DNA of 50,032 nt from Candidatus Zhuqueibacterota bacterium (lineage in GTDB: Bacteria; Zhuqueibacterota; Zhuqueibacteria; Zhuqueibacterales; Geothermadaptataceae). Below are positions 15,711-15,777 of this stretch, piece after piece. The notes under the pieces were generated by a model. The model was not told the origin of the DNA and did no database searches. It saw nothing but the letters and a program-made list of their open reading frames with translations. Location of the stretch: positions 1-50,032 of the forward strand of contig JAUZRQ010000079.1 of NCBI GenBank assembly GCA_030950365.1, given 5' to 3'. Every line of letters begins with the position of its first letter. The first letter of the stretch is position 1. Both the position numbers and the translations under genes were made by a program.

Positions 15711-15777
15711 AAAATAATAATTTTCGGTTATAACCGAAAAATATTATTTTATATCTCGTTTTGAAACGAAAAATATC
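15711..15777. promoter_or_regulatory. 40-bp palindrome plus second dyad before the AAA/DUF4143 gene
   Basis: 15721-15740 is a perfect 20-base palindrome (TTTTCGGTTATAACCGAAAA). Its arms extend to 15711-15750, a 40-base palindrome with one mismatched pair (15720/15741). A second, related dyad, TCGTTT-TG-AAACGA, lies at 15756-15769, with outer ATAT/ATAT matches, ending just before the ATG at 15781. Both share an (A)ACNGAAAA half-site. There is no Shine-Dalgarno sequence between the second dyad and the ATG. A tandem repressor operator or protein-bound site is the simplest reading. Confidence 0.65.

Follow-up and report, generated by a model that had tools for sequence, protein, structure and literature searches.

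Two dyads 32 bp apart precede a DUF4143 ATPase gene

What purpose is served by the two inverted repeats that crowd the start codon of a bacterial ATPase gene, and which protein reads them? The question is raised by one gene in the window, that is, the whole 50,032-bp stretch of a Candidatus Zhuqueibacterota bacterium contig analyzed here. The sequence-only reading of this DNA described a near-perfect 40-bp palindrome and a related second dyad abutting the start codon, and proposed either tandem operators or a DNA target of the ATPase. Both dyads were confirmed (Table 1). The palindrome consists of two 20-nt arms with no spacer that are 95% complementary, with one mismatched pair. No other palindrome in the whole window reaches 17 of 20 complementary pairs, and the best palindrome in 200 block-shuffled windows had 16 pairs, never more. 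The second dyad repeats the first in direct orientation (15724-15744 versus 15756-15776, 81% identity, starts 32 bp apart) and stops 4 bp short of the ATG at 15781; the site pattern used for the genome scans below places paired sites at 15722-15739 and 15754-15771. Inspection of the sequence between dyad 2 and the ATG revealed no visible Shine-Dalgarno motif.

Table 1. Features of the dyad-ATPase locus, in window coordinates or protein residues
Feature	Position	Strand	Remarks
Possible -35 element, TTGCAA	15695-15700	+	Weak, inferred from sequence; A+T-rich possible -10 inside dyad 1
Dyad 1 of putative operator	15711-15750	none	Centre 15730/15731; 19/20 pairs complementary
Dyad 1 core	15721-15740		TTTTCGGTTATAACCGAAAA
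Dyad 2 of putative operator	15751-15776	none	Centre 15762/15763; exactly 32 bp from dyad 1
Dyad 2 core	15754-15771		TCTCGTTTTGAAACGAAA
PDC-S01-family ATPase (AAA_14 + DUF4143), 375 aa	15781-16908	+	Pfam, PADLOC, AlphaFold2 model
Presumed Walker A, GARQVGKT	15850-15873	+	Residues 24-31; invariant columns in 18-sequence alignment
Presumed Walker B, DE	residues 80-81		Invariant columns in 18-sequence alignment
Winged-helix region, residues 196-250	16366-16530	+	Helix-turn-helix 216-223 / 227-239, DSSP of AlphaFold2 model
Putative specificity residues D226-K227-E228	16456-16464	+	Start of recognition helix; covariation with operator
Predicted PD-(D/E)XK-like nuclease domain, C-terminal, residues 286-375	16636-16905	+	

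Tandem dyads with a 32-bp period recur upstream of homologues

Homologues were collected from the same phylum (82 genomes, 44 of them with matches) and by a scan of named genomes, which gave 80 further homologues, 42-64% identical, from Bacteroidota, Proteobacteria, Treponema, Patescibacteria, Nitrospirae, and other groups. Upstream of the same-phylum homologues, dyads repeatedly adjoined the start codon, their sequence varying from gene to gene; in the same-genus relative L014 (93% identical), the half-sites were kept and the dyad centres were changed. The first set comprised 93 non-redundant upstream regions (94 rows minus one near-duplicate); genes with no usable start codon, less than 100 bp of upstream DNA, or a score below 250 bits had been left out beforehand. 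The replication set was drawn from 295 genomes of another class, 54 of which had a match. Its 67 matches were reduced to 63 loci by removal of two with internal stop codons, one partial match, and one equal to L090 of the first set, and then to 60 genes by removal of one locus with too little upstream DNA and two near-duplicates. A gene was scored as periodic at a given shift when its best 24-bp self-match at that shift reached at least 17/24 identity.

At shift 32, the best self-match in the first set averaged 15.3, versus 9.9 in shuffled sequences, and 43 of the 93 genes reached 17/24, as against none among the shuffles at that shift. Eight genes did so at shift 33, and the remaining shifts stayed near background. 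The replication set behaved alike, with 38 of 60 genes at shift 32, 4 at shift 33, and 0 or 1 at each of shifts 26-31 and 34-39. Taking shifts 32 and 33 together, the period occurred in 51/93 first-set and 42/60 replication genes compared with 3/202 neighbouring control genes; 60 of the 153 genes (42/93 and 18/60, respectively) fell below the threshold at 32/33 bp. Conservation upstream of close homologues had been proposed as the check on the palindrome, and tandem 32-bp dyads did recur in two separately drawn sets. The conserved feature is the 32-bp spacing rather than the length of the palindrome.

When wider spacers were allowed, an inverted repeat scoring above 95% of shuffles was found before 38/93 close, 37/72 remote, and 7/23 viral-contig members, compared with 7/90 control genes by the same test. 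The remote set takes in L153-L158, which are 43-48% identical to the window protein and supply four of the 37; without them the count is 33/66. In several remote members, 15-23 bp separate the arms, and the repeat stops just a few bases from the ATG. Two further arrangements were seen. A paralogue in the window's own genome (L004, contig C47) has, directly before its ATG, a 32-bp palindrome that is perfect but very unlike the present one in sequence, and the PDC-S01 relative L117 has several repeats of about 20 bp upstream, in a geometry unlike the 32-bp pairs.

These counts bear on the possibility that the palindrome acts as RNA, either as a bidirectional intrinsic terminator or as an mRNA hairpin. 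The 15721-15740 segment is indeed terminator-like on both strands (2 such features found, 0.1 expected), and the predicted RNA fold is stable (-14.3 kcal/mol, z -4.7). Good RNA folding is, however, expected of any perfect dyad, and an RNA role leaves unexplained both the second dyad at 32/33 bp in 93/153 genes and the base-by-residue covariation described below, so that we regard it as very improbable.

Operator bases covary with three residues of the downstream protein

The relation between dyad sequence and protein sequence was analyzed in the 68 genes with the clearest motifs, 34 from each set. The motifs were aligned without protein information, with both sets pooled, before any training and test counts were made, and the blind alignment gave the half-site consensus T-A-A-T-C-x-y-A-A-A. 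With whole-protein identity partialled out, similarity of the winged helix still correlated with similarity of the operator (0.230, p 0.001 in the first set; 0.211, p 0.007 in the replication set), and residues 226-228 gave higher values (0.387 and 0.289, p 0.001 each). The ATPase and nuclease parts showed no significant partial correlation with the operator, leaving the winged helix as the only large region that did. Among approximately 290 alignment columns, no other outranked residue 228 in the first set, and just one did in the replication set.

Residue 228 was tied to position x (column 5) with 1.57 bits, 21 SD above permutations over the 68 genes, and residue 226 to the base preceding x, at 17 SD. 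Lys228 went with C at x in 19 of 21 genes (G in the two exceptions), Asn228 with A in 15 of 15, and Glu228 with G in 13 of 14 (T once); the base before x was C in 49 of the 51 genes with Asp226. Residue 227 was linked to y, Lys227 with C (19/24) and Ser227 with A (11/14). A table made from the first set predicted the base correctly in 26 of 32 replication genes, versus 10 when the commonest base was always chosen; of the 34 replication genes, two were left out of the prediction, their residue being absent from the first set.

Relatedness was then set against this association. Among 21 disjoint pairs of nearest relatives, a residue difference was accompanied by a base difference in 8 of 10, and pairs of like residue showed a base difference in 1 of 11 (Fisher p 0.002); among pairs less than 45% identical the base was shared in 92/110 with the same residue versus 94/649 with different residues. 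On a tree built without the winged helix, 29 residue changes and 26 base changes were counted; restricted to strongly supported branches, there were 3-5 independent changes per residue, nearly all in the same direction, and at these numbers no sign test reaches 0.05. By covariation, the sequence of the putative operator is specified by the gene's own protein. The counts show that the half-site bases follow residues of the predicted recognition helix, the C with 226, x with 228, and y with 227, and these three amino acids largely predict the letters of the putative operator. Three genes from viral contigs (L125, L128, and L148), whose products are less than 30% identical to the window protein, have D-G-K at 226-228 and GGAAT/ATTCC near the start codon, as the code predicts.

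The dyads coincide with a predicted core promoter

A weak promoter can be proposed for the window gene (Table 1), and the same-genus relative L014 has a TTG at a similar distance, whereas a promoter consensus scan of the window favoured another weak candidate at 15664-15692. Promoters of the Bacteroidota type have a -7 box of consensus TAnnTTTG. In homologous genes with promoters of this type, the phase between -7 box and dyads was fixed: six of the sixteen phases accounted for 26 of 28, a phase window that was picked after inspecting the data. Position, 32-bp tandem period, and -7 box phase together locate the putative operator at the gene's own core promoter. The comparisons show that, in this clade, many genes for PDC-S01-type proteins have tandem inverted repeats of their own, spaced at a 32-bp period, at the predicted core promoter.

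The intergenic region holds a further hairpin-like sequence at 15548-15579, between the ATPase gene and a divergent gene (14315-15493) whose translation resembles cystathionine gamma-synthase/lyase; the sequence has no Rfam match, and an Rfam search of the window returned none. Elsewhere in the window, two adjoining small genes at 24064-24759 resemble, judged from their translations, an AbrB-type antitoxin and a PIN-domain toxin.

Site pairs in eight genomes precede only PDC-S01 genes

Further copies of the site were sought across genomes, as the sequence-only reading had suggested for the palindrome. In the own genome, the core pattern matched one unrelated G+C-rich site besides the promoter, and a looser pattern gave three single sites beyond the promoter pair, near the level of a reversed-pattern control. 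The window site type was scanned in three genomes (the own, a same-genus, and a Chitinophagales genome), in which 32-bp pairs lay solely at the gene's own promoter and additional single matches stayed close to the reversed-pattern count. The Lys228 site type was scanned in five other genomes; single matches exceeded the reversed control in four of these, and therefore pairs only were counted. The known pair was recovered in all five, together with one new pair in G380. This new pair precedes a broken PDC-S01 gene whose recognition helix reads DSK. Thus, all 9 site pairs 32 bp apart in the eight genomes precede PDC-S01 genes, one of them an unplanned find, and in the own genome the only pair is at this promoter. 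The broken gene (L301, G380:C46:32300-36200, about 674-1958), found by the operator pattern, has kept its operator pair intact. An exact single site also precedes a PDC-S01 gene in G380; three PDC-S01 genes of this genome share one site type. In G187, two exact single sites lie inside unrelated coding regions.

Tandem dyads over a promoter are usual for any dimeric repressor, and the dyads could accordingly be operators of a separate host regulator rather than of the ATPase. Against this stand the tracking of residues in the downstream protein by the site sequence and the absence, in eight genomes, of pairs anywhere except before another PDC-S01 gene. Nor is there a recurring neighbour family that might encode such a regulator: the largest cluster covers 4 of 75 loci, and the gene is solitary. 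We therefore consider a separate regulator highly improbable.

Even less probable is a mobile element that carries the gene and has the dyads as its ends or scars. In two sister-genus genomes the slot between the gene's two neighbours is empty, so the gene was gained or lost in that genus, and some close relatives belong to phyla far removed from this one, both of which would suit mobility. The dyads described lie 5' of the gene, though, with no matching pair elsewhere in the genome, and synteny holds at this locus in the same-genus genome, where the half-sites are kept and the dyad centres changed. Mobile-element ends were accordingly dropped as unsupported.

The ATPase belongs to the candidate defence family PDC-S01

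The protein scored above the curated Pfam cut-offs for AAA_14 (PF13173, 99.4 versus 27 bits) and DUF4143 (PF13635, 142.2 versus 28.1 bits). Its residues 1-373 matched positions 1-373 of the 375 in PADLOC model PDLC04789 (558 bits, E 2.5e-168), and PDC-S01 models of PADLOC matched 18/18 aligned homologues. The earlier statement that DUF4143 ATPases have no settled role was therefore slightly too weak, since PADLOC includes the family, under the name PDC-S01, among its phage-defence candidates; PDC-S01 presumably equals COG1373. An NCBIfam search of the protein gave just weak ATPase matches far under the cut-off, and a sequence search of the PDB gave weak matches to P-loop ATPases.

An AlphaFold2 model of the whole protein had a mean pLDDT of 90.7. 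Its best structural matches were the archaeal Walker-type ATPases PABY2304 (2qen, Z 16.4 over 255 residues) and SSO1545 (2fna, Z 16.3 over 252 residues), which are closest in structure at about 20% sequence identity, followed by the plant NLR RPP1 and CED-4 (Z 13-14), with AAA+ proteins such as Cdc6 close behind. In the model, the second helix of the helix-turn-helix spans residues 227-239, and residues 226-228 therefore lie at its start, the usual place of base contacts in a recognition helix. The C-terminal domain, modelled alone (pLDDT 76), resembled mostly PD-(D/E)XK nucleases (Can2, Card1, McrC, EcoRV, and Hjc), with modest Z scores of at most 7.7, and Foldseek on this domain model gave no E-value below 0.001. 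Glu298, Asp324, Glu337, and Lys339 are invariant in 18/18 aligned homologues, so that the acidic residues and the ExK motif of PD-(D/E)XK nucleases are conserved.

A proposed self-operator of an ATPase-nuclease

The alternatives proposed from the sequence alone, tandem operators or an ATPase-bound target, are strongly supported by the 32-bp dyads before homologues and by a dyad sequence that follows each protein's own predicted recognition helix. The dyads are most likely docking sites of the gene's own protein. At a probability of roughly 80%, we propose that they form a self-operator read through residues 226-228, whose bound dimers would block the gene's own promoter. A period of 32 bp corresponds to three helical turns, and protein dimers on both dyads may thus sit on the same face of the DNA and bind cooperatively. 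Repression rather than activation is inferred because the dyads overlap the core promoter: bound dimers would block RNA polymerase, and the ATPase-nuclease would keep its own expression low.

A different sign of the effect deserves some weight. The protein might bind the dyads mainly as an activator, or use them as a licensing, storage, or cleavage site; its nuclease-like domain retains the invariant acidic residues and lysine, and the position and phase data, which give promoter overlap, would suit either sign of the effect. Overlap with the promoter spacer and the -7 box nevertheless fits occlusion best, and the sites are absent from gene ends and from elsewhere, contrary to a mobility or target function. 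We judge such a non-repressing role unlikely, and autorepression remains our preferred reading.

How the proposed switch would be thrown is more speculative. Entry of a phage or plasmid might alter the nucleotide or oligomeric state of the protein or titrate it off its operator; loss from the operator could then raise expression and free the predicted PD-(D/E)XK domain to act. An excerpt of PMC4406477 reports a 6.6-fold change of the Thermus thermophilus gene TT_P0211 (AAA 14, DUF4143) in plasmid-carrying cells, a plasmid-linked change that fits the release-of-repression idea. A likely candidate for TT_P0211 is the AAA_14/DUF4143-like gene at 14854-16074 of L300 (pTT27 of T. thermophilus HB27). 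An inverted repeat with 9-bp arms ends about 35 bp before the start of this candidate gene. With site and reader diverging together, a gene could move between hosts with its own switch. Such divergence would also limit cross-talk between paralogues, though not always, as the shared site type of the three G380 genes illustrates.

Relation to known systems

Self-regulation is already known as a kind of behaviour. The C proteins of restriction-modification systems are small stand-alone helix-turn-helix proteins encoded beside the restriction-modification operon; they regulate themselves through tandem dyads that overlap the promoter, and they move together with a nuclease gene. The present system resembles them in its tandem dyads over the own promoter and in the link to a nuclease. 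It differs in that regulator, ATPase, and predicted nuclease would be one polypeptide, that the reader would be the winged helix of a STAND-like ATPase, and that the dyad period is 32 bp. A C protein as such is ruled out for a 375-aa ATPase with no recurring partner gene. In M.SsoII-type methyltransferases, an added DNA-binding part represses the enzyme's own operon; these too are enzymes doubling as their own repressor, albeit of another enzyme kind, and we know of no family-wide residue-to-base code for them. Type II antitoxins bind their own promoter, with site and reader diverging together. They share autoregulation with the present protein, but form two-gene modules of small proteins in contrast to a single-gene ATPase.

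The excerpted text of PMC12988326 ranks PDC-S01 fourth in frequency among prokaryotic defences, with 9,986 systems in archaea and 29,494 in bacteria; the family figures there as a candidate, no mechanism is described in the excerpts, and experimental validation is pending for most PDCs. The excerpts also give the family an ATPase domain joined to one of the PD-(D/E)XK type, as predicted here, and they describe neither a self-operator nor a recognition code for this defence candidate. In the open-licence PMC papers searched, a scope outside which preprints fall, the excerpts retrieved contained no description of a self-operator or a residue-to-base code for PDC-S01, DUF4143, or COG1373 proteins. 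As far as that search shows, there is no earlier description of a very large candidate defence family whose ATPase-nucleases appear to specify their own operators through a readable code.

The winged helix of apoptosome and NLR relatives is an internal structural module. More tentatively, and with less than even odds, the winged helix of a STAND-like ATPase may here be a base-specific reader in which residues 226, 227, and 228 address three neighbouring bases; it may lock a self-sufficient immune ATPase-nuclease to its promoter, with the operator as both off-switch and sensor. If so, anything that displaces the protein from its operator during infection would arm the defence, and in one of the commonest candidate defence families a large part of the operators would become predictable. 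The self-operator and its code would offer a handle on the DNA that the protein reads, the place of its regulation, the residues to change, and the outcome to expect. The family would also supply natural variants of a winged-helix code for DNA recognition, and it may connect DNA binding with the winged helix of immune ATPases.
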